A stretch of 45,072 nt of DNA from a virus: positions 1 through 45,072 of the IMG/VR virus record IMGVR_UViG_3300005830_000063; one strand, 5' to 3'. A program made the translations under genes and the position numbers. Below are positions 3,783 to 35,400 of the stretch, in pieces (the stretch's first letter is position 1; every line of letters begins with the position of its first letter). The notes below the pieces were generated by a model. It was given only the letters and a program-made list of their open reading frames with translations, was not told where the DNA came from and ran no database searches.

Positions 3783-4319
3783 ATGTCTGAAAATGAGAAG
3801 GCCTCGGAGGGTAAAGACCTCGCCAGTGAAATGGTAGATGGACTCACTGGAACAAAGGCGGAGCCGAAGAAAAAGGAAAAAGTTGTTCTTGAAGTAAAGC
3901 CTCAGCCTGATGAGGGAGCCATGCCGGATAACGAAGAAGTTCTAAGGCAGGCCGCAATGCTGATACGCCTTGCAGGCAAACTCGGCATTGATCTCATGGG
4001 GAAAACGCAGGGCGTCAATATCTTCAAAGATCACGAAGATGAAGGCGTGAGCTCCGAGCCTCTTGAATCAAAAAGGAAGTTCAAGATCGTTATTTCAGAA
4101 CAGCAAAATACCGACGATCCGAATCAGGTTTTTGTTTCCTGTAACGGCAATGCCTTCCTTATTCAGAGAGGCCAGGAAGTCATTATACCGGAAGGTATCC
4201 TAAACGTACTGAAGGAATCCGTCTACGAAATACCGTATAAAGACACGGAAACAGGAGAGGACAAAATACGGTATGTCAAGAGATTCGCCATTTCCGAGTT
4301 AGGAGAGGTAATACAGTGA
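3783..4319 (+). CDS. Conserved virion-module protein of unknown function
   Basis: This 178-aa protein has a lysine- and acid-rich, probably disordered first 45 residues, a short helical stretch (about residues 50-70), and a beta-rich C-terminal domain. That domain contains VFVSCNGNAFLIQRG followed by a PEG turn and a helical NVLKES segment. I recall this arrangement (FVxxNGxxxxIxRGxxVxxPE) in small proteins near adaptor genes of other phages, but no function is established to my knowledge. A GGAGG site precedes the ATG, and the TGA overlaps the start of the adaptor gene. It may be a head-tail connector accessory, by position. Confidence 0.6.
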   Translation: MSENEKASEGKDLASEMVDGLTGTKAEPKKKEKVVLEVKPQPDEGAMPDNEEVLRQAAMLIRLAGKLGIDLMGKTQGVNIFKDHEDEGVSSEPLESKRKFKIVISEQQNTDDPNQVFVSCNGNAFLIQRGQEVIIPEGILNVLKESVYEIPYKDTETGEDKIRYVKRFAISELGEVIQ

Positions 4320-7006: not shown

Positions 7007-7888
7007 ATGGCTAATACGTTCAGCAATACGCAGAACGACGCTACCATTAACTTTTCAGGGAGTGGTACGTTCTCTGGCTCTTTTGTCAATACACAGCGCA
7101 ATATCACCGTAAATTTTGCCGGAGACAGCAAGGGATCTTTCAGCCATGTTACCGGAAGATCGTCGCTTAATGCTAAATCTGGCGGCATATTCTCGAAATC
7201 TGCGGCCGCGACAACAATAGCATTTTCGTCTTCCGCTGTAAGTACGGGGGTATTTTCTCGCACATCCAGGAAAGCTCGTCTCAATATCGGAGGCTACAAT
7301 GTATCGTCCGGTAGTTTTTCTGCTCGTCAGAGATCTTCAGGTATTCTGATAGAAGGAGGCGAAAGCACATCAGGGACGTTTACCGGCACGGCAAGTCATG
7401 TAACCACATTATTCAGATCGCTTTTATCATCGGGATGTGTAGCCGTATGCCTCAGTAATCTTGCAAACACGGAATATAATAATTTCCCATTCAATTCGTT
7501 CGCAAATTTCAACGGCACTATTCTGGCCGCAAATGGAAATGGCATATATGTTTTGGGTGGGAATAATGACGCCGGAGCAAACATTTTAGCTACACTTGAG
7601 ACGCCTCAAGACGACTTCGGATCGTCGAAGCTGAAGAGAGTTCCTGATATCATTGTCGGGATCGAGGCCGGGGCCATGCAGGGGTATATCGTTCAGGATG
7701 GGGTAGCATCGGCGGCAGAGACTACAGCATCAACAAGCGGAAAGACGAAATCCGTAAGATTCAGGCCGGGCAGGGGAGCAGAACACAGGTATTGGGGCGT
7801 AAGGCTTCAAAACGTTGCAGGATCGGATTTCAAACTGGATACCATAGAGTTGTTCCCGGAAATCCTAAAAAGAGAGCTGCATGAATGA
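7007..7888 (+). CDS. Fibre-like virion protein with N-terminal short repeats
   Basis: This 293-aa protein begins with about six repeats of 17-21 residues (residues 5-135), each opening with Phe after a small residue (GSFVNTQ, GSFSHVT, GIFSKSA, GVFSRTS, GSFSARQ, GTFTGTA). The spacing suggests a repetitive beta structure, as in trimeric fibres or beta-solenoids. The second half is a globular beta domain that includes VPDIIVGIEAGAMQGYIV and a VRFRPGRG stretch. Its ATG lies 9 nt after the previous stop, and the end overlaps the next gene by 4 nt. A fibre or short tail-spike role is inferred. Confidence 0.6.
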   Translation: MANTFSNTQNDATINFSGSGTFSGSFVNTQRNITVNFAGDSKGSFSHVTGRSSLNAKSGGIFSKSAAATTIAFSSSAVSTGVFSRTSRKARLNIGGYNVSSGSFSARQRSSGILIEGGESTSGTFTGTASHVTTLFRSLLSSGCVAVCLSNLANTEYNNFPFNSFANFNGTILAANGNGIYVLGGNNDAGANILATLETPQDDFGSSKLKRVPDIIVGIEAGAMQGYIVQDGVASAAETTASTSGKTKSVRFRPGRGAEHRYWGVRLQNVAGSDFKLDTIELFPEILKRELHE

Positions 7889-9627
7889 TACCTGTAAAAA
7901 TAACTCTCCAGGGAGATAAATACAAGGCTCGGTATTACGTTCAGCATGCACTACGCATGCTCGCAGAATTCGGCAGGCAGATCAGGGCTACAAATAATCT
8001 TATCAATTCTCCCTCCATGAGCCAGTTGAAAAAACAAGTTGTCCTCGATAGCGGCAACGTAATAATAACCGTTCAAGAGATATTCGGGTTAAGGGAAATT
8101 ACAATATTTGCGGCAGCAGAGATACCGGTATCTGGCTTAGAATTAGAAAAGCAGGGATTGTTTCTTTATATCGTTACCGTGGCCAAGCCTTATCCTACCG
8201 AGAAAATTTGCACCTTAGATGAAATGGGCAACAGCATTTATAAATATTACGTCTACAAAATATTGAAAAACGGGGGAGTAATTATCCCGGCAAAAGGACC
8301 CAAAATTATCACAAATATCGGCAGGAATTTAACATGCCAACAGGGTGAAAATCGACTCTATTGCGACCTTTCCGTGTTCAATCTTCATAGCCATGACATA
8401 GGGGGAATTATCCCGGCGAATCCTCTTGATTGTGATATGAATACCTATTGGGGATATCCAAAGCAGAATTCGACGGTATGCTTCTTGCCATTTGATGCCT
8501 ACTGGGGAAGCGATAGGGCAGAGCAGAAACCTGCAGGTCCTTTGCTGCCTGAAGGATATAGGATGGCTCGGCATAATTATTCGCTTGATGCTGAAGGCAA
8601 ATTTGACGGAAATCAGTTTCTTTACAGTATCGTAGAAACAATATATGACGATGGCTGTTTATGGCTTCCTGATCGCGTTGATGCTCAAAGTCTCTATAAG
8701 CGTCTTGGGGGGCATAGAATTTCCCATTTCGATAAAGCTGGCGCATGGATACACAACGTTGTTTTGACCGATCATTATACAGACAAACATAACTGGATAT
8801 ACCATATTCCAATTATGGCAATAGCAAAAGATAAATTCTTGTATCGTTCTCATGAAAAGATAGGGACCAATGCACAATACGGAGATCCGAGTGGATATGT
8901 TGGTTCTTTTCAGGATTGGTCATGTTATGAGGCGGAGCTTACAGAGAAACTCGTTGTCGGAGATGAGGTTGTGGATACCTTCATTGGGACTGTATCTAAT
9001 AAGGTTGTTGGTCAGGTATTGACAGGAAGTGATACCGTAACAAGACCAACAACATCATTATACATATTTGATGGTTGTCCCGAGGTCGAATGGTCAGTTA
9101 GCGGTGGAGGTGGAGCTGTAACTATAAATCAAAGCGGGGTTGTTACGGTAGGGAGTAGTGCTTGCGGGACATTCACAGTAGTTGCATCATGTCCGATGTG
9201 TGGCACATCTGATAGCATGGATGTGTTAATAACAAATGCAGGACAATGGAAACCTCTTCCTTATGCAGGAGGGCTTTCGAGTGATATTTGCTGGACTTAT
9301 CATTATTGGGCGGGGCATGAAACAGTCGGCCTAGAGAAAAAATGCTTTACACAGATTATTGAGGGAATACGGCATCAGGTCTCTTATGGCCGTCAAAGTT
9401 TTAGTATATCAGACCCATCATGCCATTGTGGGAACTACGAATGGAAGGGCAATCCATCTGTACCTGGAAGTTTTTGCGGTAGTGACCCGAAATCTCCGGA
9501 GGGAAGTTGTTTTCCTTATACTCCCTGTGGTACACCATGCTTTTTTGAATGGAGAAAATATAGAGGACAGACTTGTGAATGGTTATGCTCATGGTCTGGA
9601 GGAGGTTGCGGTCTTGGAGAGTGTTAA
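7885..9627 (+). CDS. Virion protein with Ig-like domain and Cys-rich C-terminus
   Basis: This 580-aa protein starts in an ATGA overlap with the previous gene. Residues 1-350 have no recognised family. Around residues 400-450 a BIG2-type Ig-like domain is suggested by VEWSVSGGGG, NQSGVVTVG and GTFTVVASC. From there to the end are about 15 cysteines, including CPMC, CHC and several CG pairs, with many aromatics, ending GGGCGLGEC. Such cysteine density is unusual for a phage structural protein and could reflect metal binding or extracellular disulfides. The region is also more AT-rich than the capsid genes. By position it is a tail protein, perhaps host-contacting. Confidence 0.6.
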   Translation: MIPVKITLQGDKYKARYYVQHALRMLAEFGRQIRATNNLINSPSMSQLKKQVVLDSGNVIITVQEIFGLREITIFAAAEIPVSGLELEKQGLFLYIVTVAKPYPTEKICTLDEMGNSIYKYYVYKILKNGGVIIPAKGPKIITNIGRNLTCQQGENRLYCDLSVFNLHSHDIGGIIPANPLDCDMNTYWGYPKQNSTVCFLPFDAYWGSDRAEQKPAGPLLPEGYRMARHNYSLDAEGKFDGNQFLYSIVETIYDDGCLWLPDRVDAQSLYKRLGGHRISHFDKAGAWIHNVVLTDHYTDKHNWIYHIPIMAIAKDKFLYRSHEKIGTNAQYGDPSGYVGSFQDWSCYEAELTEKLVVGDEVVDTFIGTVSNKVVGQVLTGSDTVTRPTTSLYIFDGCPEVEWSVSGGGGAVTINQSGVVTVGSSACGTFTVVASCPMCGTSDSMDVLITNAGQWKPLPYAGGLSSDICWTYHYWAGHETVGLEKKCFTQIIEGIRHQVSYGRQSFSISDPSCHCGNYEWKGNPSVPGSFCGSDPKSPEGSCFPYTPCGTPCFFEWRKYRGQTCEWLCSWSGGGCGLGEC

Positions 9628-11707: not shown

Positions 11708-12862
11708 ATGGCAACTGACAAGAAAGACATCAATGGCCCGGATTTTAATGCCTTAGGTAAAGCTATATGGAGCATACCTGATAACGCCATCAAAGCGATC
11801 GCCAATGCAACAGGGACCCCGTTACAGGTGCCTTCTCCTTCTTCCATAGAATCTGCCAATCCCATAACAAAAGGGCCGAGAAGCGTTTCCCCTCCTTCCC
11901 CTGCGGCAGTAGTGCCAAAAGTTCCGGCGATCGTACCGAGTGCGGAGGCGGCGGCATTGGCTACTAGCGTACCTAACAGCCTTGATACAATATCAGAAAG
12001 AAAAGCCGCATCAGGAATGACGTCACAGATCTTCAAGGATAATCCTCTTCTTTCTGGCGTAAACCTTAACCCTGCTCCGACGTCGGCCGGGACCATTACG
12101 GCAGATGGGAAAACCTATAACGTTCCCAAATCGTCACTGAGCAATGATGCCAACCTTGACATTATCAACCAGAACCGTGAAGCATCTGCAGGCCTTAATC
12201 CTGATATCATGGGAGCATTGAGGGCTTTCGGTGGGGATATTAACAAGGCTTCAAACTATCTTGCAACGAGAAGTCTGGAAGCAGAAAGAGCGTCAAGAGA
12301 TACCGGTCCCGATCTTATGACGAGATGGCAAGATGCAATCAAACAGGCCGGAATAGGAGCGACTACCGGGGGAATAAAATATGCTCGACAGGCCCAAAAC
12401 GCTATTGCTATACTTCAAGGGCTGATGCGTGAGGATACGGCAAACAGAGCTATAGATGCGAGAGAAAGAACTGATTTCGCCAATATAGATTCTAACGACG
12501 CTTATAGATCGGCTCAGCTTTCGGAATTGGCAAAGAAGGGGCCCCAAGTTGTCCAGGGCGAGGATAATATATATTCCTATAATCCAAAATCGGGGCAGTT
12601 TGAACCCACAGGCATAAAGCCGAGATCGAAAGAGTTTAAGCCTGATACCGTCCTTGACAATATCAAGAAGATATCAGATATCAGGAAAAACTATGCAGAA
12701 TCCGGTCAGGAACCGCCAAAGTGGCTTGCAGATCTCGAAACTCAGCTAACAGGCTCTACCAAGGGCAAAGAAGAAACACCGCCATTAGAGGGCGCAAGGC
12801 GCGCGCCCGATGGCAACTGGTACATACAGAGGAACGGGAAGACTTTTAAAGTGGAGAAATAG
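11708..12862 (+). CDS. Internal virion protein candidate, 384 aa
   Basis: The ATG at 11708 has a GAAGGAG site upstream; a GTG at 11693 is in frame but lies in the terminator tail. Residues 30-130 are rich in Pro, Ala and Ser and probably disordered. Residues 150-280 are helical and include PDIMGALRAFGGDINKA. The C-terminus carries GARRAPDGNWYIQRNG, a basic APDGNWY-type motif that I recall at the ends of several phage internal virion proteins. The next gene begins 1 nt after the stop. An ejected or internal virion role is inferred from this motif and from the polyvalent gene that follows. Confidence 0.6.
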   Translation: MATDKKDINGPDFNALGKAIWSIPDNAIKAIANATGTPLQVPSPSSIESANPITKGPRSVSPPSPAAVVPKVPAIVPSAEAAALATSVPNSLDTISERKAASGMTSQIFKDNPLLSGVNLNPAPTSAGTITADGKTYNVPKSSLSNDANLDIINQNREASAGLNPDIMGALRAFGGDINKASNYLATRSLEAERASRDTGPDLMTRWQDAIKQAGIGATTGGIKYARQAQNAIAILQGLMREDTANRAIDARERTDFANIDSNDAYRSAQLSELAKKGPQVVQGEDNIYSYNPKSGQFEPTGIKPRSKEFKPDTVLDNIKKISDIRKNYAESGQEPPKWLADLETQLTGSTKGKEETPPLEGARRAPDGNWYIQRNGKTFKVEK

Positions 12863-12863
12863 A

Positions 12864-15800
12864 TTGCCGAAACTCACGCCAGTTGACTATGATCCTTTTG
12901 CCGATGAGCAGAAGGGCAAGGCAGAGCCCAAGCTTACTCCGGTAGATTATGATCCTTTTGCAGAAAAACCCCAAGAAACGCCTTCGGCCATTCCTGGCCC
13001 TGATGCTTCTCTCGCTGATCGTGTCGTAAGCACCTTAAAGGCCGGAGGGAAGGGAGCATACCAAGGCCTTACTACAGAACTTCCGGGCATGGTCGGCAAA
13101 GCCATGGAGTTTATCGGCCGACCTTCAAATCCCCTAGATGGCGTCGGAGGAGCAATTCAGCTTCCCTTGCCCGGCATGCCGGCCGTTACAGCAGTCACAA
13201 AAGCTGTACCTTCAGTTGGAGATTTCATAGCCGAAAAAGGCAAGGAACTCAGCGGTTGGGCAGAAGAACGAGCAAAAAAAGAGCCGCTTGAACAGGCCGA
13301 TCTTTATACTCCTGAAGGGATGGTATATCAGGCAACCAAGATGCTCGCCCCTTCCCTTATACCGGGAGGGATAGCAACAAAGGCCGGAAAGATCGCTCTG
13401 GGCGTCAAGGGCCTCGCGGAAGCCGGGAAGGTAGCAGAGGCTACGGCGGCGGCCAAAAAGGCCGTAGATATCGGCTCAGCGGCCGCAGCGGGATTATTCG
13501 GACTATCTCAGGCTCAGCAAACAAAAGAAACGGCCGAAGAGGCCGGACAGCAACCAGGAATCACTCCATACCTTACAGGAGCCATAGAAGCACTCGGGGA
13601 ATTCCTCGGGACCAAATACTTCGCCAAGCTCCTTAAGCTCGATGAGGGCGGCATAACAAAGCCCGGAATGAAAGATTTCCTGAAAACCCTCGGCGTCGAG
13701 ATAGGTACGGAAATGGGCCAGAGTGGAGGCGAGGCGGCCGTAGAGAAGTATTCAGGCGTAAGACCGGGCGCAGATCCCATTAAAGAGGCCATTGACGTCA
13801 TAGGCCCCACAGCAATTATGACAGCCTTAACCGGAGGGCTCGGCCACATTGCAGGGCAAAAGCCTCAGGAGCAGGAAAAGGGTGCTCCTAAGGGCGAGCC
13901 TGGCACCACTGAAGGCAAAGAAATATCTCCGGCAGACATCAGAGTAAGGGAAGCTCTGGAAAAGGCCGCAGGCCGTCCATTGACAGATGAGGAATGGGGC
14001 AAGCTGACCGAGGCGGCAGCGGCAGAACAGAATCCGACAGAAATAGATGAGGCGGCGCACGAGGCCGCTACATCTCCACTTAACGATATCGAGCAACCTT
14101 CCGAGGCCCAGAAAAAGGCGGGCAATTACATTAAAGGGCACGCGACAATAGCAGGCCTCGATGTCACCATAGAAAATCCTCAGGGATCTATACGTTCCGG
14201 CGTATCTCCTGAAGGGCAGCCATGGCAGACAGAGATGCAATCACATTATGGCTATTTCAAGCGCAGTGAAGGAAAAGACGGTGATCAGGTAGATGCGTTT
14301 ATTAAACCCGGAACCCCTAAAAATTATGACGGTCCGGTATTCATCGTAAATCAGATAGACCCCAAAACAGGGAAATTTGACGAGCACAAGGTCATGGTAG
14401 GATTCGAGAGCCAGGCCGATGCAAACATAGCCTACCATGAGAATTACGAGCCCGGATGGAGGGGGATGAAAGATATCGTTCCCCTATCCATGGATGAGTT
14501 TAAGACATGGCTGAAAAGCGGAGAAACGAATAAACCTTTCGCTCCAAAGATACCGGCCGACCTGAAAGCCGATTTAAAGCCCTCTTCCGGGGAGAAAGTG
14601 CCTGATCATATAACGAGAGCCCTGCAGGAAGAAAGACCAGTGCCGCTCGCGGTATCGGTTAAAACAAAGCAGCTCACGAAAGATACCATCCAGGAACATA
14701 TTTCTTCCGGCGCGATCGCCGCGACGGCACCAATCAGGCTTACGACCGTTGACGAGATAAGAAGCATCATAAAGAACAACGGCCTTTCGGAAGGCAAAGA
14801 CTTCGAAGGCAAGGCCGGGATCTCGGCGCAGGTCGTTGAAGGCGGCAAGCCAGTTGTAGCATATGGAGCCAATGACAAAATAAGCGCGGCGATCGTCTTC
14901 CCGGAAAGCTCGATCGAGGGCAAAGGGCAGGCTCCGAATGAAGTAAAGATAAGCCAGAAAACGAATTTGGCAGATCTCCGATTCGTTGTCGATGGATACA
15001 GAGAGCTCATGACCGCAGAAGATCTCATGAAGATCATAGAGGGAGAGAAGGCGGCTCAAAAAGAAAGAAAGACATATCCCAAACAGGAAGCCATAAAAGC
15101 AAAGCAGAAAGAGGCGAAGCCTGCAGAAGAAGAAAAAATAAAAGTTATACACCATCCCATAACCGAGGACGAAAAACGGTTCGATACTCCCGAAGGCGAA
15201 GATAGACACGATTGGGAAAATAAGCAAGCGTTTAATAGGGCCAAGAAGCTCGGCTTTACCAAGATGGAGATAGATAGTGACGATTGGGCTAGATTCGAAC
15301 TTACTGATGATTTCGAAGTTGAAATACCCGGTAAAAAAGGTTGGGCCAGCTTCAATCATATCAATGTAGCAAAAGCTCCTAATGGTGAATGGGCCGCAGA
15401 TATTTCATATGTGCTCGGCAATCAAGGCGGTGGTGCATCACCTAGCATATGGAATACTGATTGGTATGCCGATCGAGATACGGCAATAAAAGCCGGGATA
15501 AAGAAGCTCAGGGCCGCTATTAAAGGCCGCATGAAAGACGATCTTTCCAAGACTGAAGAGGCCGATGCAAACAGGATTCTGAAGTATCTCGACGATCTGG
15601 AAAGCGGAAAGATAGAACCTACCCAGAGCGAAAGACAAAAAGAGCATAATGCTATACAGGCCAGGATAGATAAAATTGCCGAAAAGCTTCCTCCTGTCAA
15701 AAAAGGCACATATATGGCTGATATCCTCGGGGAAGAGGAAGAAAGCGAATTCAAGTATCATTATGAAATAGATGTCGATGGAAAGCCGGTATATGTCTTT

Positions 15801-17351
15801 ATAAAAACCGATGGCATAGTCGCAAGCATGGGCTCGATCCCTATGGAGCTGCACGTACCATCGAAAGACATAATTACGGAGACAGGATACAGAAGCGACC
15901 ATGTAAACATTGACGCATTAGAAGCTCCCGATGTCGAAAAAAGACTGAGGGCTTACCTTGAAGATCAGGCCGATAAAACTAAGCTTCCCAAGAAAAAGAA
16001 ATTCCCCAAACAGGAAGCACTGAAAGAAAAGCAGAAATCTAAGGCCAAACAAAAAGATATCAAACCTGGGACCGTAGGCATGATGTTGGAAGAGGGAGAA
16101 GTTGTAACTACCGTAACAGGCAGGGAAACTACACCATTCCCTTCTCTTAAATTTGGCAAGGGAACAAAAAGGACTTTGGCCCTTGTAGATAGATGGCTCG
16201 TTGATAATGCAGAAGCCGAGGCAGAATCAAGGGGTGATGAATTTAACCTGCTTCAGTTTAGGAATATGAACAGGAAGAATTTAAGCCCTGCAGATAAAGA
16301 CAGCGCGGAGATGTATCTTTTTGACAAGGAGGCCAAAGATGATAGTACCCGCAGGAAAGGACAGCCAGGGGAGACCGTTGTTCCGAGTGAAGAGCCACAG
16401 CGGAAAGAACCTGTCAAAGCCCATGCCGAGGAAGCAGGCGGAGCTAAGGCTGAAACAGGTAGAGATGTTCAAGCACATGAAAAAGTAGAGGGCCCCGTAG
16501 CGAATGAAAATGAAGTATATGAGAAAGATGATCCCCGAAATGAGAAATTCATGGAGGTCGTTGAGTATAGGACAAAGAAATACAAGGCCAAGATAACACT
16601 GCTTCATATTCCGGGAGAGGGATGGATTAGCGCTCTTGATCAGGGCCACTTGCAGGGCACCTATTCAGGAGGCGGTAGCCCTCTCATGAAAGGTGATGAA
16701 GCATTTTTAACCAGGGAGGAAGCCCTTGCCGAAGACCTGAATCGCTTGATAACGATACAATCTAGTTTCCTTTCCGGGCCTCAACCTAGCAATGCGACTG
16801 AAAATCAGATCAAAGAGGCGAAGAAGGCAGTAGAATGGGCCAAGGCTGAACTGAACAAGATTGGAAAGAAGGAAGGCCCGAATGAAGAGGAAACGCAGGA
16901 CGAGGCAGGAGGCTTCAAGGTTGGTGATTCCGTAACTGCGGTAAGTGTATTTTCTGGCGGCCTTATTGGGACGATTAAAGAAATTACCGATCATCCCGAA
17001 TTCGGCCTAAGGGCAAAGATAGAATGGGAGAAAAAGCCTGGATTTCATGCAAGCGAATCAGTATTACCGTTAGACAGATTGACGAAGGAGGCGAAGACTG
17101 ATGAAGTGCCCGAAGTGCGGAGCGAGGATGTTGGGGAACAAGTGCAAACGTTGCGGGAAGAGGGTATAGAGGGGAAACAAACAGAGATAAATATCGACGA
17201 GATCCCGGCCGACTTGATTGTGGAAGTTACGGCTATAAGGGAAAAAACAGGCAAGACCGTAAAGGTCAAGGAAAGTGCTCGGCGTGCGATCGCCGATCTA
17301 AATGCCAGTATTGAGCAATATAAAAAGCTTTTGGAGTGTCTAAAATCATGA
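12864..17351 (+). CDS. Polyvalent virion protein, 1495 aa, pyrophosphatase-like domain
   Basis: The frame extends upstream to 12810, but the TTG at 12864 has a GGAG site and follows the previous stop, so it is the chosen start. Residues 2-13 and 22-33 are tandem PKLTPVDYDPFA motifs. Residues 60-330 are Ala/Gly-rich helices, possibly amphipathic or membrane-interacting. Residues 418-554 match the pyrophosphatase-like domain described in phage and conjugative-element polyvalent proteins: GNYIKGHATIAGLDV, ENPQGS, HYGYFK, DGDQVDAFI, DEHKVMVGF. Further globular segments follow (about 583-728, 783-891 and 965-1020). A KOW/SH3-like segment (FKVGDSVTAVSVFSGG) lies near 1352-1402. Two small genes are nested in its linkers in the +1 frame. 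The protein is probably packaged and ejected with DNA. Confidence 0.8.
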   Translation: MPKLTPVDYDPFADEQKGKAEPKLTPVDYDPFAEKPQETPSAIPGPDASLADRVVSTLKAGGKGAYQGLTTELPGMVGKAMEFIGRPSNPLDGVGGAIQLPLPGMPAVTAVTKAVPSVGDFIAEKGKELSGWAEERAKKEPLEQADLYTPEGMVYQATKMLAPSLIPGGIATKAGKIALGVKGLAEAGKVAEATAAAKKAVDIGSAAAAGLFGLSQAQQTKETAEEAGQQPGITPYLTGAIEALGEFLGTKYFAKLLKLDEGGITKPGMKDFLKTLGVEIGTEMGQSGGEAAVEKYSGVRPGADPIKEAIDVIGPTAIMTALTGGLGHIAGQKPQEQEKGAPKGEPGTTEGKEISPADIRVREALEKAAGRPLTDEEWGKLTEAAAAEQNPTEIDEAAHEAATSPLNDIEQPSEAQKKAGNYIKGHATIAGLDVTIENPQGSIRSGVSPEGQPWQTEMQSHYGYFKRSEGKDGDQVDAFIKPGTPKNYDGPVFIVNQIDPKTGKFDEHKVMVGFESQADANIAYHENYEPGWRGMKDIVPLSMDEFKTWLKSGETNKPFAPKIPADLKADLKPSSGEKVPDHITRALQEERPVPLAVSVKTKQLTKDTIQEHISSGAIAATAPIRLTTVDEIRSIIKNNGLSEGKDFEGKAGISAQVVEGGKPVVAYGANDKISAAIVFPESSIEGKGQAPNEVKISQKTNLADLRFVVDGYRELMTAEDLMKIIEGEKAAQKERKTYPKQEAIKAKQKEAKPAEEEKIKVIHHPITEDEKRFDTPEGEDRHDWENKQAFNRAKKLGFTKMEIDSDDWARFELTDDFEVEIPGKKGWASFNHINVAKAPNGEWAADISYVLGNQGGGASPSIWNTDWYADRDTAIKAGIKKLRAAIKGRMKDDLSKTEEADANRILKYLDDLESGKIEPTQSERQKEHNAIQARIDKIAEKLPPVKKGTYMADILGEEEESEFKYHYEIDVDGKPVYVFIKTDGIVASMGSIPMELHVPSKDIITETGYRSDHVNIDALEAPDVEKRLRAYLEDQADKTKLPKKKKFPKQEALKEKQKSKAKQKDIKPGTVGMMLEEGEVVTTVTGRETTPFPSLKFGKGTKRTLALVDRWLVDNAEAEAESRGDEFNLLQFRNMNRKNLSPADKDSAEMYLFDKEAKDDSTRRKGQPGETVVPSEEPQRKEPVKAHAEEAGGAKAETGRDVQAHEKVEGPVANENEVYEKDDPRNEKFMEVVEYRTKKYKAKITLLHIPGEGWISALDQGHLQGTYSGGGSPLMKGDEAFLTREEALAEDLNRLITIQSSFLSGPQPSNATENQIKEAKKAVEWAKAELNKIGKKEGPNEEETQDEAGGFKVGDSVTAVSVFSGGLIGTIKEITDHPEFGLRAKIEWEKKPGFHASESVLPLDRLTKEAKTDEVPEVRSEDVGEQVQTLREEGIEGKQTEINIDEIPADLIVEVTAIREKTGKTVKVKESARRAIADLNASIEQYKKLLECLKS
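12867..12962 (+). repeat. Tandem coding repeat PKLTPVDYDPFA x2
   Basis: The segments 12867-12902 and 12927-12962 encode the same 12 residues with several synonymous differences, separated by eight codons. Conservation of the peptide rather than the bases suggests selection on the motif. Short VDYDPFA-like motifs at N-termini of polyvalent proteins are plausible packaging or docking signals (inference). Confidence 0.75.
16339..16488 (+). CDS. Nested gene A: 49-aa basic protein in +1 frame
   Basis: AAGGAGG (16326-16332) stands 6 nt before ATG 16339, and the frame runs 49 codons to TAG 16486-16488, wholly inside the 1495-aa gene in its +1 frame. The product is strongly basic and looks folded: GRPLFRVKSHSGKNLSKP, then a helix with RKQAELRLKQVEMFKHM. 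I recall small phage proteins with the same V-K-S-x(2)-G-x(2)-L-S-K core followed by an A-E-x-R-L-x-Q-V-E helix. The overlapping host segment (residues 1159-1209) is low-complexity, rich in E, A, G, K and P. Near-optimal initiation signals plus a family-like product argue for a real overlapping gene. Confidence 0.65.
   Translation: MIVPAGKDSQGRPLFRVKSHSGKNLSKPMPRKQAELRLKQVEMFKHMKK
17101..17169 (+). CDS. Nested gene B: 22-aa zinc-ribbon peptide in +1 frame
   Basis: AAGGAGG (17085-17091) lies 9 nt before ATG 17101, and the frame ends at TAG 17167-17169. The 22-residue product has four cysteines at positions 3, 6, 15 and 18 (MKCPKCG, then CKRCGK), a textbook minimal zinc ribbon or knuckle. It is in the +1 frame of the 1495-aa gene, whose own product there (residues 1413-1436) is an acidic linker. 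It is shorter than normal gene-calling cut-offs. The full CxxC-x8-CxxC pattern with a good ribosome binding site makes chance unlikely but not excluded. Confidence 0.55.
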   Translation: MKCPKCGARMLGNKCKRCGKRV

Positions 17352-23271: not shown

Positions 23272-23498
23272 TCATTACTCAGGGATACGGTGCCAAAACA
23301 GTAATAACGAGCGGTTATGGCAGTTATGTCCCTTCAATTATCGTTCCTCCACCGGCAGAAAGCAAAATTCCAAGTGGAGGATCTTACATCCCAGACGGCG
23401 TTATTCATCCAACAAAGCCTAAAATAAAAAGGCCGTATATTGACGACGACGAAGTTTTTGAGATTTTAGCAAAGATATTCGTGGAGGTAATTTCATGA
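23268..23498 (+). CDS. Hypothetical 76-aa proline-rich protein
   Basis: The gene begins in an ATGA overlap with the appendage gene and ends in an ATGA overlap with the giant polyvalent gene, so it bridges the two. The 76-aa product starts with Gly/Tyr-rich turns (ITSGYGSYVPSIIVPPP), has a Pro-rich middle, and ends with an acidic helix (DDDEVFEILAKIFVEV). It may be an attachment or trimerisation accessory for the fibre or a small virion protein. No family is recognised. Confidence 0.6.
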   Translation: MIITQGYGAKTVITSGYGSYVPSIIVPPPAESKIPSGGSYIPDGVIHPTKPKIKRPYIDDDEVFEILAKIFVEVIS

Positions 23499-26400
23499 GC
23501 TCATTAGCGAACTGCTTAAAAATACATAATATATCTCCTGCTGAGGCAAAGCTTATTCGCCAGAAAGCAAAGGATTACAAAAGAGAGAAATTCAGTGCCA
23601 AGGAAGCCAACGAGGGCGCAGTACAGGACGTTATCAATCAGTTTATCCAGGAGAGAGAAAACATAATCCGGCAGATCGAGGCGGCGAAGAAAGGAGGCAA
23701 AGAAAATGCCAAAGTGCAAGAAACCCAAAAAACCGTAACCGAAGTAACTCCATTCACAAGGGGATACATTGTCAAGGATCGGCTATCCGGCCGCATCGGT
23801 GTTGTTGTCCGTCCGACATATCCGGGGCGAGTGGAGGTAATTTTCAATGACGGCCGGCGAGATGAGTTTGGGCAGGTTCAGCTTATAAAAACTGAAGAAT
23901 TCGCCGTCAGCGATCAGGCTATAGATCTGCAAAAATTTGTCCTGAGCAAAGAGCCAGGCCAGCTCCCCCATGAAAAGCTGAAGTCTTTAAAAGCAGGAGA
24001 TACCTTCTCACATGGATTACATACCTATAAGATTACGGACATTTACGAGGATGGTTCAGTCAAAGCGCTCGATATAACCAACAAGAAGAAGCCTATCGAA
24101 AGAGTATTCCATGATTTCGAGAAAGAAACCCATCTCAAGCTAGACACTTCAGAAGCGAAGAAGCCGGAGGAATATGGCACCAAAAATACCGTGTTCACAA
24201 AGGAGAGGGCAGACGCGGCCAGGGAGAGATTACGCAAGAAGCTCAACCGGGTATATATGGGCCTCGATCCAGAGATTGTCAGGGATGGCATTGAAATAGC
24301 CGGATTCCATATTGAGGCAGGGGCCAGGAAGTTTAAGGATTATTCCCTTAAGATGATTGAGGATTTCGGGGAGGCTATCAGGCCTTACCTGAGGTCGTTT
24401 TACATGGCAGTAAGAAATTATCCCTCCTTTGATAACGAGGGAATGAATACCGAGGCCGAACTGGATTTGATCGAGAAGCAGGCAGAAAAGGGCGAGGAAA
24501 CAAAGCCGTATTTTATTTACCAGAAAGAAACACGGAATTTTATGGAGGTGGACGGCAAAAAGATAACGTTCGAAGGCTTTGAAACCAATGATCTTTTTAT
24601 CTACCACCATCCTAAGGATACGATCGATAATTGGGCTATCTACGAGGGCCATTCTGGAATAAAAGTCTCTGGCGGCCGCACGAGGAAGGAAGCCATTGAA
24701 AATACACGCAAGTTATTGGAAAAGAACAAAGATAGAATCGAAGAAGCTATTAACAGGGCAATAGAAAGTACCGGAAGATCTCCGAGGTATGCAGGTGTTG
24801 ACTTCGGGGAGCAAAGTGCTAAAATAAAGCCAGAAGGAGTTATTGATGAAAGCTTGGGTACAGCAGGCAATCAACCACTGGAAGGAGTTTCAGCCGAAGA
24901 GGTACGAGGAACTTCAGAAGGCGGGCCAACTACAGCAGGAGGCGGAGAGCGCGGCAGAGCTGACCGAGAAGGCACTGGAAGAACTGATGTCGCAGGGAGC
25001 GACGTTCTCGGAGGCGTGGGAGCAGGTGAGAGAGTTATACCTATTCCCGAAGGAAGAGCCGAACTTGGAGACGTCAGAGAAACAGGACGACCTGAGCGCA
25101 CACAAGATAATAAGCTCGGAAATGCAGAGCCTTCAGGAAGCACTGAACGAAGCGGATTAACCCCCACTCCCGGAGAAATAACCCCGAAGCAAAACTACAC
25201 GATCACCGATGCCGATAATCTAGGCAAAGGGTCTCAAGCACAGAAATTCGCTGACAACGTAGCGGCTATCAAGCTGATCAAGAAACTTCAGGAAGAGGGC
25301 AGGCAGGCCACGCCTGAAGAGCAGGCCGTCCTTGTTCGATATGTAGGGTGGGGCGGTATCAAAACTGCCTTCCCAGACGAAACCGGGAAATTCAATAAAG
25401 GATGGGAAAAGAAGGGTCAACTACTTAAAGATCTGCTCAGCAAAGAAGAATGGGACGCTGCATATAGCACCATTCTTGACGCCCACTACACATCACAAGC
25501 TGTAATTAACTCCATGTACGAGATTGTAGACCGGCTCGGTTTCAAGGGCGGCAATGTCTTGGAGCCATCTATGGGCACCGGTAATTTCTTTGGCCTCATG
25601 CCTCTTAGCATGAGAAACGATTCGGCCCTTACCGGAGTGGAATTCGACAATATTACCGGAGCCATAGCGAAACAACTATACCCGAATACGCATATCATGG
25701 CTCCAATGGGATTTGAGGATGCAAGATTCGCTGATAATTTCTTTGATCTCACAATAGGAAATCCACCATTCGGCAACAGGCCGATACCGTATGGTACGAG
25801 TAAACACCTAAAGGGATTCACCATCCATAATTATTTCTTTGCGAAATCATTGGATAAACTGCGCCCTGGCGGTATTCAGGCAATGGTAGTTTCGAGATGG
25901 TTTCTTGATAAAAAAGACGCATCACAAAGAGAATACCTGGCCCATCGAGCTAACTTCATCGGGGCGATCCGGCTACCGAATACGGCCTTTCAGGAAAATG
26001 CACTCACAGAAGTAACCACGGATATTGTTATTTTCCAGAAACTTCCCGAAGAGGCATATGGCAGTGCAGATAAATCATGGACGAAGACCGGGATGGTACA
26101 GGACCCACTCGGCGGCGAGGACATAGAGATCAGCCAGTATTTCATAGATAATCCCGTGATGATGCTCGGCCGCATGGAGCGCAGCGGGAAAATGGTAACT
26201 GGCATGGAGCCCACTCTTGCATACATAGACGGTTCAGATATCAACGCCATGATGCAGGACGCCATTAATCAGCTTCCCCAGAATATATACGGAGAGACCG
26301 GGACCGTATTGCCAACCTATGAGCTTACAAGGGAAAGTGTCGAGCCTGCGCCGGAAGGCTACAACATTGGGTCTTATATCGTAGAGGACGGCAAGTTAAA

Positions 26401-29400
26401 GCATATCGAAGAATCTCCGGACGGCTCGCAAGTATCCGTAGAACTAACTCCGGAGACGCAATGGACAGAAAAACAAAAACTCGGGCAAGGAAGATATGAA
26501 AGGCTGATGAAGCTCGCTGAATTGCGCGATTCTGTACGAAAACTTCTTCGTCATGAAGTCCAGGACGATGCTAAATCCGTCATGGAGGAGGAACGGGAAA
26601 AGCTCAATAAGCTTTATGACGAATTTGTAAAGGAGCATGGATATCTCAACAATACCGCCAATGCCTCTCTTTTCCATGACGATCCTGATAGCCCTCTTCT
26701 TCTCGCTTTAGAAAACAATTATGAGAGGGGTATCAGCAAGACAGTGGCGGCAAAGCTCGGTATCAAACCTGAAAAGCCGACAGCCAGTAAGGCAACGATA
26801 TTCAAGAAAAGGGTTATTTCTCCATATGTTCCAGTAAACAGCGCTGATACGGCCGAAGACGCCTTGATGATCACGTTATCTCAGCTTGGAGAGGTAAACA
26901 TCACTCACATGGCAAACCTTACCGGCAAGGAAAATAGCGAGATAATAAAGGAACTTCACGATGATCTTGAAAACCCGATCATCTTCCTGAATCCTGAAAC
27001 CGATACCTGGGAGCAGGCTTCGAAATATCTGAGCGGCAATGTCAAAAAGAAAGAGAAGATCGCGCGTGAGAAGGGCCTGATAAAAAACGCTGAAGCTTTG
27101 AGGGCCGTATTCCCTCCTGATATAAAAGCCTCGGATCTATCCGTTAAGCTCGGGGCGTCCTGGGTCAACGAAAAGACATATGAGGATTTCGCTAAATACC
27201 TGTTCGGAGATGAGGCCGACGTAGTAGCAAAATATATAGCTACAGACGGCAGAATTATCATCGACATAAGGGGAGGCAATGAAGGCAAATTACGCAAATA
27301 CAGCACGCCGCGCATAGATGGGCCAACCCTTCTTAAGAAAATCCTCGGATCAGCGAACATCGCAGTGTATGACGTCCTCGATGATGGTTCACGGCAGATC
27401 AATAAAGATGCAACGGTAGCGGCCATTGCAAAGGCAGATGAGATCCGGCAGGAATTCGAAGATTGGATATTCAGTGAAGCCGGGAGAAGAGATTCACTGC
27501 TCCAATTCTATAACGATAACTTTAATACTGATGTCGAGCCTAAATACGATGGTGAACACTTACTGCTACCCGGCAAGGTGCCTGATGCCACTATTCAGCT
27601 ACGCAGACACCAGAAAAACGCTATATGGAGAATCATTCAGGATCAGAAAGCATTACTCGACCATGTAGTAGGTGCAGGCAAGACCTATACCATGGTAGCA
27701 GCAAGCATGGAAATGAAGCGCATGGGAATTGTAAGGAAGCCCATGATAGTAGTCCCTAACCATCTGGTAACTCAATGGGCGAAGGATTTCTATACCTTGT
27801 ATCCGGGAGCAAAGATCCTCGCCATGAAAAAGAAGGATTTCGAAAAGAGAAACCGGAGAACTATGCTTTCCAGAATCGCTACAGGAGATTGGGATTCCGT
27901 CATTGTAGCACATTCCAGTTTTGGCTTTATCAACGTAGATAAAGAGTGGGAAGCATCATTTATCAAGAAACAAATCGACGATCTGATGGAGGCTGCCAGA
28001 ATCACCAGAGAGACGGAGGGGAAGAGAAGCCGGAGGGCGAGCGAATATCAGAAGGCGGTCGAGCGCCTTCAGGCAAAACTAAAGGCCCTGCTTGATAAGC
28101 CGATCGACAATATTCTTACCTTTGAAGAGCTCGGCGTCGATCATCTGTTTGTAGATGAAAGCCACGAATTTAAGAATCTTTTCTTTACAACGGCAAAGCG
28201 CATGCTCGGCCTCGGCAACCCCATGGGAAGCCAGAAGGCAATGAATCTGTATATGAAAGCCCAATGGTTACAGCAGAAGCACTCTGGCAAGGGAGTGGTA
28301 TTTGCAACCGGCACTCCGGTCAGCAATAGCCTCAGCGAGCTTTATACGATCCAACGCTATCTCGGGCTGCAGGATCTTGAAAACAGAAACATAAAGTCAT
28401 TCGATGCATGGCTGAACAACTTCGGGCTAGAGCAGAGCGATTACGAATTGGACAGCACGGGAGTAAAGTTAAAGGCCGTGAATCGCCTCAGAAGCCTTAC
28501 CAATATCCCTGAAATTATGTCGCTTTATAAGCAATATGCTGACGGAGTGACAAACGATGATATCAAAAAGGCCTACAAAGAACAGACCGGCAAGGAATTT
28601 CCCATACCCGGTATCAAGGGCGGCCAGAGACAGAATGTTGTCGTAGATCGCTCAGATGATCAGGCCGCATATTTCGCAGATATAGTACAAAGGGCAGACG
28701 CCGTAGAGAAAAAAGATGTAGAGCCAGAAGAAGATAATATGCTGAAGATCACCACTGATGCTCGAAAAGCGGCCCTTGATATCAGGCTCGTAGATCCAGG
28801 AGCAAGCGATCATCCCGGCAGCAAGACTCACGTAGCCGCTGACAGGATAAGGGATATTTGGGAAAAATGGTCGGCAGACAAAGGGACGCAGCTTGTTTTT
28901 CTCGATCTGTCAATCCCTCTCAGCGCATCAAAGAGAGAACAGGCCAGTATCATAGATCTTATCAACAAAGCAGACGCGGGAGATGAAGAGGCTCAGCTTG
29001 CCCTTGATAAGCTAAATCCTGATGATCTTGTTGCCGCAGAATCAGCAAAAAGCGGATTCAGTGTATATGACGACCTGAGATCAAAGCTTATTGATCGTGG
29101 AATTCCTGCAGGGGAGATAGCTTTCATCCATGACTACAATACGGACAATAAGAAGCAGGATCTTTACGATATGGTCAACGCCGGGAAGATAAGGGTGCTT
29201 CTCGGGAGCACTTCCAAATTGGGCGCAGGGACGAACGTTCAAAAGAAGTTGGTAGCGGAGCATCACCTTGACTGTCCTTGGAGGCCTTCCGACATTGAGC
29301 AGAGAGAAGGAAGGATTATTCGCCAGGGCAATGAGTTAGTTGAAAAATATGGTGTCGGTAAATTCGATGTCGAGATTCATGCGTATGCTACAGAACAGAC

Positions 29401-32400
29401 TTATGACGCTCGTATGTGGCAGGTTCAGGAGCAAAAACTGATTGCTATAGGAGCATTGCGGAGCTATAAGGGAGAAAGAGAGATTGAAGAAGTAGCCGCG
29501 GCTGCCGCGACCGCCGCAGAGATGAAGGCCGCTTCAACCGGGAATCCTCTCATTCTTGAGGAAGTTAAGTTAAAGGATTCAATCAGAAAGCTCGAAATAA
29601 AGCAGAAGTCTCATAAGAGGCAGATATGGGACGCTGAAAGCGATATCAAGAAATTCGAACGGGCCCTCGAGGTCTTCCCTGAAGAGGTGAAGGATCTGGA
29701 AGTGGACGCCGAAAAAGTACGCAAGTATAAAGATAATCCATATGGCGAAGACAGGCCTTCCGTCAAAATACAAGGCAAAGAATACACAGATAGACAGGAG
29801 GCCTTAAAGGCGGCCAACGATGAAAAACTACGGCAAATCGGAGGCAAGGATGTAGAAACCCTTGTCAGAGAAACTCTCGTATTGAACATAGACGGAGAAG
29901 ACTATAAAGGCTTCGATACGATCAAGCAGTATATCGTCGATCATATTTCAGAAGGCTTCAATGTTTTGGTCGATGGAAAGAAAAAGCATGTATCAACAAA
30001 GGATAGAGCAGAGAGCATAGTTTCTGACGCCATGGATGTAAGAGAAAAAGAGGTAATGAAATCTCTTCCGAAGTTTTCTATCGATATCAATGGCACGCCA
30101 GCGACAAGCTCAACTGCAATAACGAAAGCCATACATGACGCCTTTGGTGACATGGACCCTTTTGCTATGGAGATCGGAGGCAAAGCCTACATAAAGAGAT
30201 CTGATGCCGGAAAGGCCGCCCAGGACATGATCGACGATCAGTTGCCAACGGTAAAGGGAGATATGCTGTCAAATTATCGTGTTGGTACTTTTGCAGGCAT
30301 GGAAGTCTTCATAGACGCCTTGAATCATCCAAAAGAATCACATGGGAGGATGTACGAATTCGAGGTATCGATAAAACTCAGGGGGAAGTCTACCCAAATA
30401 GATTCCGGCATTGTAAGCAATACGCCGGGAATGGAGATATCCAGAGTAGAGAGATTGGCTAAGCATATTATTTGGGAACTGAGCACGAAGAAAGCGACCT
30501 TGAAATCAGCCAAAGAGCAAATGCCTGTTCTACAACAGATTTTATCTAAGACATGGCCGCAGCAGCAGGAGCTTGACGAAAAGAAGGCGAGGCTCGCTGA
30601 GGTACAAAAAATACTTTCCGAGAAGCCGAAAAAGCAGGAAGAAGAGGGCGGTGAAGCACCTGCGCTATCCCTATCCGAAGATGAAGACCTGAAGGCCTTC
30701 GCGCAATCCATAGAGGCGAAAAATGCTTTCGGATCGGCAATGAATCCGGAAACTTCTGACGATTACCTGGCCCTTCTGAAGAAAGACTATATGACGCTTT
30801 CAGACCGGGAGAAATTCATTGTAGACAATCTGATGAGCCCGGAATACAGTCTTGGAGACAGAAAAGCCGCAGGCCTCGACATGGGAGAAGTTAAGGCCTC
30901 GATCGTTGATCTTCAGAAGGAATGGAAGAATGGTCCGGATATCCGCGTGGTTCAATCCCAAGCGCAATTACCGGATCGCCTGCAGAAATACATATCTTCC
31001 TCAAAGGGCAAGGGAGCCGTGGAGGGGATATTCGATCCCAACACCAAAGGTATTTATCTTGTAGCTGACAACCTTAGATCGATCGGGAGAGCTCATGTTG
31101 TTCTATTTCATGAGGCAGTAGGGCATTACGGCCTTAGGGGTATCCTGGGCGGTGATATCGCTCCTATCTTGAATCAGGCCTACATAGCGAAGAAGAAGGA
31201 AGCCGATCAGATAGCCAAAAAGTACGGCCTCGATGTCAGCACTCAGGAGGGAAAGCAGCGCGCTGCCGAGGAAGTGCTTGCTCGTATGGCAGAGAAAAAT
31301 GAAAAGTCACCGTTCCTTCAGAAAGTCTATGCAGCGATAAGAAACTGGCTCAGGAAAATAGGCTTTAATATCAACCTGTCAGACAACGATCTAAGGGTAA
31401 TGGTATCCCAGGCTCGCCAGTTTATCGAGGAAGGCAAGAAACCCTTGAATCTTAGCGGCCTAGCCGCCATGAGCAGGAGAGAGGCAAGGGGAGGTTTCTA
31501 CTCTCAGCTTTATAAGGTACTCGACAATAAGTTGCCTGATCAGGTTACTCCTACACTGTTCAATAAGGTGATCGGCCAGCATCGTGAAGGCATACTCGGC
31601 ATAAAGCCGGAAGAGATAGCAGACACCAAGGCAACCGTCTCAGCGATCTTCGGGGATAAGAAGATCCTGCCGAAACAAGAGATATTGGATTATCTGAGAG
31701 CATCGGACAGGACCGATGTTCAGGATGTTGTTTTGGGAGGCGATTCTAAATATAAGAAATTATTGGATAAATTTTCCAGAAAAGTTAGTAAGAGACTAGG
31801 CCGCCAAGGATGGACATTTGAAGATCTAACAGAGGAAGAATATAAAGAGTATTACGAAATTTATAAGCGAAAAGATGTGTCTTATTACACTACTCTTATA
31901 GCTGAAACAAAAGCAGAGAAAGATAAGGTACTGGAAGATTTTAAGGAGGCAGAAAATGTTTTTGATAGGATTTCCGAAAACTTAAAAAAAGGTATCCCAG
32001 TAGGTTCGTCAAATAAGAAATTTTATGATGACTATTTTAAGAATGGGAATCCGTTTGAAGCTGAACTATATAGATTATATGACAAGATAAAGATGCTGGA
32101 AGAGGAAAAGGAAAGGTCAGCAATTCAAGGAACGCATTTCTCGGAATATAGCATACCTGGATATATAACTGATAGTTATAGAGAACAATTTGTAACGGCG
32201 AAGAAAATATCCGGAGAAAAATTAAAAGATAATCCGGAGCAAAACTGGAAAGACGGCCATTCGGCATATTCAAATATCGAGAATCCGATTGTGCGAATAC
32301 GCTACAACGATCGAACGGATGCTGATGGCAACATCATAAGATTTATAGAAGAACTTCAGGGGCCAAACCCTGAAAACGAAAAGAAGATGCCAGAAATATA

Positions 32401-35400
32401 CCGGAAGTATAAATATCAGATAGGACTAAAGCGAATCCTTCAAAATATTGCTGAAGAGAACGAAACGAGAAAAGCTAATTTTGAAGATACAATAGATGCT
32501 ATCGCATGGACTACCGGAGATACGCAAGCTTACAGGTACAATCTCAGTACATATATCGATGAGATAGGTTATGCCGTTAATGACGATGGAACCTATGAAA
32601 TACATTCATATAAGCATGGAGAAGAATTATCTCAACTGACACAGAAAAATGTACCATCAGAAAAACTTGAAAATATTGTTGGCCTTAATCTTGCCAAGAG
32701 AATAAGGGCAGGAGAAGGTGCTAAAGATGGTGATCTGAAAATGTTTGGAGGCCTCGATCTTAAAGTTGGAGGAGAAGGCCTGAAAAGAGTATATGATGTC
32801 ACGATACCTAAATTCCTCAATAAATACGGAGAACAGTGGGGCGTGAAGGTCAAGGAGGTTGAGATTACCTTGGCGGGGATGAAGGATGCTGGCGACAGAG
32901 TTTTTGACACTAAGGCTGCCGCTATTGATTGGGCCGATGAGAACCTTGGAAATCACCAATACGAGATACAAAAGCGTGAGAACATCGGCGGATTTATTAT
33001 CTACGATTCCTACGACCATAAATATATTCAAGGGGATTCTGTGATACTAGCCTCTTCCATCCCTATCACTCCCGAGATGCAGGCCGATATCCTCCAAGAA
33101 GGGCAGCCGCTATTTGCGCGCCAGGAGATGAGCGTGGCCGAGCTCGAAACATGGAAGAAACAGACGGAGGAATTATACGCGGCCGAGCCGCTAACCGAAA
33201 CTGACGCGGTAGGACGGCTGAATCGCAGGCTTACTCTCCGGGAACTGGACAATGCCATTAAAAAAGCAAGGGAACGCGAAAAAACAGCGCCTATGTTCTC
33301 TCGTGGCGATATCGATCCTGTATCCTCGGACTTCGCGGAAGTGGAGCAAAGAATTCAGGCGTCCAAGGGCGCACCAAAGGCGGGGCTTAAAGAGAAGATA
33401 ACCAAAGGTATCGAAAGAACTGCCCATTCCTTTACCAGACATTTCCCTCTTCTGGACCCGAAAAGAGACGGAGCAGAATCGGATATCCTGAGAAGAGCGG
33501 AAAGCATACCGGAATATGCCAAGAAGACCGCGACGAAAGACATAGCGGCCATTGTCGGTAATTTAAGAAAAAATCAGGCCGAAGTGTTTACTCGCGTACT
33601 GATACTGGACGATATGCTGAAGGATATCGAAAGCGGCCTCCTGAAAGGCGAACTGCCGTTCGGGTATGGCAACGAAGAGCAGGTAAGGGCTGATCTCGAA
33701 AAGTTTCAGCGCGCGGCAGATGGTAATGCCGAGATCCGGGCGGCACTGGAAAAACGTAAGCAATACATGGATAACCTTCGCAATCGTCTTGTCGGCAGGG
33801 GTTTACTCCATGAATCCGTCAATGAAGACGATCGCTATTTCCATCATCAGGTTCTTGAATATATGGCAATCCGGGCAGAGGGAGGCCAGTATACCGGCTT
33901 ATCTTCCGGGGATATGAGGCTGAAGAAAAAGGGATGGCAGCTCGCCAGAAAGGGCTCATATCTCGATTACAACACCGATTATCTTCAGTCTGAATTCGAG
34001 GTAGTATCACAGGCCCTTTCACAGATCGAGACGGCTGATACCATGAAAAGACTCAAAAGGACGGCCGATATTTCCGGCCAGGTGAGAGCCGAAGCAAGAG
34101 ATCATGACTTGGATAACTGGCAAGAGGCAATACCCGAGGGCTATACGATATGGCAGCCGGAAAAGGGGAATCACTTCTACCGCGTGCATGTCCTTACGGA
34201 AAGGGTCCTTGATCAACTCCTAGCCGATATCGACACATGGGATACAACCAAGAGTTTCGATGAACTCATGGAAAGCAACGAGGTTCGGCAAGTATTGGCC
34301 CTCGGAGGGAAAAAAGAACAGTGGGTTATCCCGGACAGGCTTGCAAAGACGCTCGATAATTTCAGGGCCTTTAAAGATGAGGGGCCGGTCGGCAAAGCCT
34401 CCAAATCTATTCTTAACACTTGGAAGCAATGGACGCTTTTAAATCCATTCAGGATCGTCAAATACAACCTGAACAACATGAGCGGCGACCTTGATATTGC
34501 TCTTGCATATAGCCCGAAGATCCTGAAATATGCGAAGGGAGCAATGGCCGATCTCTTAAGAGACCAGAGGAATAAAGCCGTTACTCCTGAGCTTCAGAAG
34601 GAACTGGATATAGCCCTGAAGAAAGGCGTCATAACATCAGGCATAACTATCCATGAGATTACGGACATAAACGAATCCGGCCTTTTCAGTATCCTTACAG
34701 GAAAAGATCATAATCTTATTCAAAAGATATGGAAAACCGCGAAAGATTATACGAACTGGCGCGAAAACATCCTGCGCCTCGCGGCCTACCGTCACTTTAA
34801 AAATGAGATCGACAATGGCAAAAAGGTATACGGAGCATCGAAAAAGGCCGAGATAGACAAGATCACGAATCCTGACGATCGTGCCGCTAAACTGGCCAGA
34901 GAGCTGATAGGAGATTACGGAAATGTCTCTGAGGCCGGCCAGTGGATCAGGGCCCATATGATTCCCTTCTGGTCGTGGGCTGAAATCAATGCTCCAAGAT
35001 ATGTTCGCCTTATGAGAAATCTAAAGAATGAAGGACGTACCACAAGAGATGCTCAGGGGATAATAGCCTGGAAGGCAACCAAACTCGGCCTGAAGGCCTC
35101 TATCTTGTTTGCCCTGATAAGCCTTTGGAATGGTACGTTCTGGCCGGACGAAGAGGAAGAGCTTGGCATAGGAGGCAGGAGACAGCTTCATATCATCCTC
35201 GGCAGAAATGAAGATGGCACGATCAGAACGCTAAGATTTCAAGGTGCCCTCTCTGATGCGCTTTCATGGTTTGGCCTTGAAAATCTTCCCCAGGATGTAA
35301 AGGATGTGACGAGCGGCAGAACAACCTTTAGCAAGAAATTCGAAGAGGCTTACAAGGCTCCAATAAACAAGGTGATTCAGGGAATGAGACCGCTTGAGAA

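Follow-up and report, generated by a model that had tools for sequence, protein, structure and literature searches.

Genes nested out of frame within longer genes are a known kind in phages, and behind the case described here lies a more general pattern. Rz1 of phage lambda, nested in Rz, and E of phiX174, nested in D, encode lysis proteins, and both have experimental proof. The open reading frame (ORF) studied here is like them in that it is small, lies out of frame inside a phage gene and has a start site of its own. Unlike these lysis proteins, its product is a 22-residue putative zinc ribbon, placed in the linker of a polyvalent protein. The Pfam families Zn_Ribbon_1, Zn_ribbon_3, and DZR (PF13240, PF13248, and PF12773) also show a pair of CxxC knuckles and Gly after them; they differ in that here the ribbon is the entire protein, with scores under the family cut-offs. 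The C-x2-C-x8-C-x2-C spacing of the cysteines is also that of archaeal Nop10 (PDB 2aqc) and of RNA polymerase subunit P/Rpo12. Nop10 itself is longer and acts as part of an RNP.

The window, the whole stretch of DNA that was analysed (45,072 nt), is a 45-kb virus record carrying phage head genes. The gene holding the nested ORF encodes a long phage protein with a match to the phage-type inorganic pyrophosphatase domain (InPase, PF18823; E 3e-53) and is classed on these grounds as a polyvalent-protein gene. InPase has been described as a domain of phage polyvalent proteins (PMC5512222). We infer a virion context, and the host protein is probably injected from the virion. The following features were recognized:

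Positions 12810 to 17351, plus strand: host polyvalent gene, 1513 aa, with the InPase domain at aa 432-569.
Positions 16326 to 16488, plus strand: another +1 ORF nested in this host gene, with AAGGAGG at 16326-16332 and ATG at 16339, 49 aa, carrying a GKNLSK...RLKQVEMFKH domain.
Positions 17085 to 17091, plus strand: Shine-Dalgarno sequence (SD) AAGGAGG, a perfect 7-mer with a 9-nt spacer to the ATG.
Positions 17100 to 17168, plus strand: acidic host-frame linker beneath the nested ORF, DEVPEVRSEDVGEQVQTLREEGI.
Positions 17101 to 17169, plus strand: nested ORF of 22 codons and a TAG stop, encoding MKCPKCGARMLGNKCKRCGKRV.
Positions 24846 to 25160, plus strand: third nested +1 ORF, 104 aa, inside a 4144-aa gene at 23495-35929.

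Our preferred reading is that 17101-17169 is probably a genuine mini-gene nested out of frame in the polyvalent-protein linker. The ORF starts 4291 nt from the host start (17101-12810) and so is in the +1 frame; it lies wholly within the coding gene at 12810-17351, on the same strand and in a different frame. The initial annotation had placed an AAGGAGG 9 nt ahead of the ATG, and this was exact, the motif occupying 17085-17091. Together the motif, the 9-nt spacer, and the ATG make up a putative initiation signal belonging to the nested ORF itself. The annotation had also described a CxxC-x8-CxxC peptide of 22 residues with no cysteine missing, in the +1 frame over an acidic linker; both points were borne out by translation of 17101-17169, which gives MKCPKCGARMLGNKCKRCGKRV and then a stop, and of the host frame, which gives DEVPEVRSEDVGEQVQTLREEG. 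The two canonical knuckles, KCPKCG and KCKRCGK, contain all four Cys and have Gly after both CxxC pairs. The peptide has eight Lys/Arg and no acidic residue. AAGGAGG also precedes the window genes at 3783, 36055, and 40261, with spacers of 4 nt; the longer spacer of the nested ORF counts against its being a gene. Spacers of 8 nt are found at the SDs of the window genes at 672, 1721, and 6186. The SD at 17085-17091 is predicted to be unpaired in the local fold, and a folding test of the start site gave no sign of unusual RNA structure (z 0.7).

The same SD could serve another event. A +1 slip near 17085-17100, aided by AAGGAGG, would give a shorter polyvalent protein ending in a zinc ribbon. 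An open stretch of the +1 frame begins at 17083, and frameshifting in prfB and dnaX is stimulated by internal SDs. However, no slippery site was recognisable by eye in the host codons AAG GAG GCG AAG ACT GAT, and ordinary initiation is sufficient, because the spacing between SD and ATG is one that ribosomes can use. Programmed frameshifting was considered unlikely for want of a slippery site on this inspection, and we rate a frameshifted tail as highly improbable.

The host gene is considered real because the InPase domain lies upstream of the overlap and the ORF continues downstream into a weakly phage-like tail. A weak similarity (E 0.09) links this C-terminal tail to the end of the InPase polyvalent protein in another viral locus, L027, and gives modest support to the view that, beyond the overlap, the host frame goes back to encoding a real C-terminal module. 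The linker under the nested ORF is apparently unstructured; a single-sequence AlphaFold model of the host end was poor (mean pLDDT 43), and confidence was lowest where the overlap lies. The polyvalent protein has a short repeated motif, LTPVDYDPFA, close to its N-terminus (window 12810-12960), and the corresponding proteins of L082-L084 begin with similar VDxDPFA or NPFA repeats. The gene just upstream has at its C-terminus (window 12740-12862) a motif like APDGNWYIQ...YFKV, which is common to the upstream genes of L032 and L082-L084, phages that are otherwise unrelated.

The peptide had also been called a zinc ribbon. The CxxC knuckles and the Nop10-like spacing are consistent with this assignment, whereas the Pfam matches are weak (best 19.7 bits versus a cut-off of 25, for a very short sequence); no score over a curated cut-off was reached with Zn_Ribbon_1, Zn_ribbon_3, or DZR, which counts against it. 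Nop10, for which structures have been solved, gives an ungapped match over 20 residues (2-21 of the peptide) with the same Cys spacing, but the E-value is about 0.06 and descent is not claimed; RNA polymerase subunit P gives a match of comparable strength. The spacing would therefore fit a zinc-binding fold that is known and very small. Viral contigs were found to carry mini zinc-ribbon ORFs of 25-36 aa that stand alone (L087, L138, L154, L157, and others). They begin with MKCPxCG and are SD-led like the nested peptide, but none is nested in a long gene. Zinc ribbons were also seen within a longer protein: at 1700-3064 of L085, a phage protein of 454 aa has two in-frame ribbons in its long acidic linker, and its gene is directly followed by one of 400 aa, possibly the capsid gene.

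Relatives of the host C-terminus were searched for with several query ranges in viral contigs (IMG/VR), and in GenBank phages and GTDB genomes; none was found. The gene downstream of the host, used as query, likewise led to no relative of the linker region. The InPase domain was the main part shared by the 80 viral loci that were recovered. No homologue keeping the linker, in which the four Cys could be compared, was found in these searches, and this counts against the nested-gene reading. Searches of phages and plasmids with the nested peptide gave weak matches in unrelated genes only, and in the 48 records behind the fetched loci the only zinc ribbons were the in-frame ones of L085.

It has to be considered whether the ORF arose by chance. 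An acidic linker rich in E, V, Q, and R might happen to give a Lys/Cys/Arg-rich peptide in the +1 frame, and K-E-A codons might happen to give an SD; AAGGAG does arise often in K/E-rich linkers. As a class, SD-led nested +1 ORFs fit the shuffle expectation (40 versus about 32 in synonymous shuffles, no clear excess), which counts against the nested-gene reading and implies that most such ORFs are due to chance and that each needs evidence of its own. Nor was any nested homologue of the peptide found in the 48 records and fetched loci. The codons of the linker argue the other way. Each TGC in the +1 frame needs a host codon pair NTG CNN, so all four Cys codons depend on such pairs. At these sites the host linker uses TTG for Leu and GTG for all three Val concerned; GTG is rare outside the overlap (4 of the 77 Val codons elsewhere in the host gene), yet three of the seven GTG codons in the host gene fall in the 66-nt overlap, and all three yield Cys. 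Synonymous resampling of the linker gave a probability of four Cys, given the host amino acids, of 2.5e-6 under host codon usage and 1.9e-4 under local usage. Scored for synonymous codon use in the host frame, the linker stretch falls within the lowest 1-2% of the host gene, and atypical codon use is general toward the end of the host gene, not confined to the overlap. We therefore rely on the local figure, which weakens the codon argument. The host codon choice is thus skewed toward the four Cys, as judged on a single sequence.

Of 500 synonymous shuffles of the host gene, 0.2% carried the four-Cys pattern in one of the alternative frames, and in no case did an ATG precede it. When all genes of the window were shuffled synonymously and read in six frames (300 rounds), an ATG with four Cys within 60 aa occurred in 2.7% of rounds, but SD-led or strict CPxCG...CxxCG equivalents in none. 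Among 484,221 host codons of the fetched phage loci, the only nested ATG ORF of this kind was the one in the window. All of these tests, the resampling of the linker included, were devised with the peptide already known, a circumstance that bears least on the whole-window shuffle and the cross-locus count. Against chance also stands the fact that the knuckle residues are correct beyond the Cys (CPKCG and CKRCGK). A chance origin of the nested zinc-ribbon ORF is considered unlikely.

The codon data also bear on a third possibility, in which a zinc-ribbon mini-gene or an in-frame module landed recently in the linker, was shifted out of frame, and is no longer translated or useful. Anomalous host-frame codon use in the stretch would be expected if the DNA had first been selected in another frame, and the long phage protein of L085 does have ribbons in frame in its acidic linker. 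A phage search with 17050-17200, however, found no donor DNA. Moreover, the SD, the ATG, the four Cys, the open frame, and the clean end are all intact, and decay would soon destroy these. We regard a relic as quite unlikely, though less so than frameshifting.

The nested mini-gene would not be alone in this phage. The ORFs at 16339 and 24846 share with the zinc-ribbon ORF the phage, the frame relation, and the linker position; they are unrelated to it in sequence and, unlike the zinc ribbon, which is so far single, they are conserved between phages. The ORF at 16339-16488 was found again in the InPase polyvalent gene of L011, nested in the +1 frame at 7822-7968, behind AAAGGAGG. In Aeromonas phage 1233 its domain is encoded alone, as an ORF of its own, whereas Vi II-E1 and other phages have a similar segment at the start of head-protease-type genes, where it makes up the N-terminus. 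Homologues of the ORF at 24846-25160 are nested in the +1 frame in giant genes of L022 (at 9433) and L079 (at 6738), between conserved host segments, while the giant proteins themselves do not align across the stretch that holds the ORF; phrog_938 contains a relative in frame. The SD is strong at the nested ORFs of the window, L011, and L022, and weaker in L079. Identities in the nested frame versus the host frame of the same alignments were 47 versus 29%, 42 versus 24%, 54 versus 41%, and 49 versus 26%. Because identity is higher in the nested frame, nested linker genes are very likely real in this phage group. A further pair of SD-led +1 nested ORFs, of 98 aa, was observed in L015 (11395-11688) and L025 (12961-13254), with identities of 76% in the nested frame versus 67% in the host frame. 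An entry sequence common to two nested ORFs, TTGAC.AAGGAGGC, was rejected: the site at 16321 needs three mismatches, and there are many such sites.

The nested-gene reading of 17101-17169 rests on the frame, the SD, the start, the stop, the four Cys, the codon bias, and the conserved nested neighbours. The initial proposal of a short nested gene below normal annotation size is supported by most of these same features, codon statistics and both neighbours included. Internal initiation of the ordinary kind on the polyvalent-gene mRNA is most likely. Ribosomes would load at AAGGAGG and start at the ATG at 17101 to make the 22-residue peptide, while others would go on reading the linker in the host frame. 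Folded round a single Zn(Cys)4 site, the product may form a minimal zinc ribbon. Since it carries eight Lys/Arg but no acidic residue, it is predicted probably to bind nucleic acid; nucleic acid or an acidic partner, for example the host protein's own linkers, is our leading guess for a ligand.

It is conceivable, though tentative, that in tailed phages the linkers within polyvalent genes and giant virion-type genes serve as landing sites for swappable mini-genes, with the same small domain occurring stand-alone, fused in frame, or nested in the +1 frame behind an SD of its own. Of such cassettes, the 22-aa zinc ribbon would be the smallest, and the phage would make it from mRNA that encodes a polyvalent protein, one that is probably injected. 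A gene within a gene of 22 codons is under the length thresholds of routine annotation. If the reading is true, few zinc-binding phage proteins would be smaller, and the peptide and its two conserved neighbours would together indicate that the linkers of polyvalent virion-type genes repeatedly hide a further layer of genes, one that could be searched for across phage genomes.
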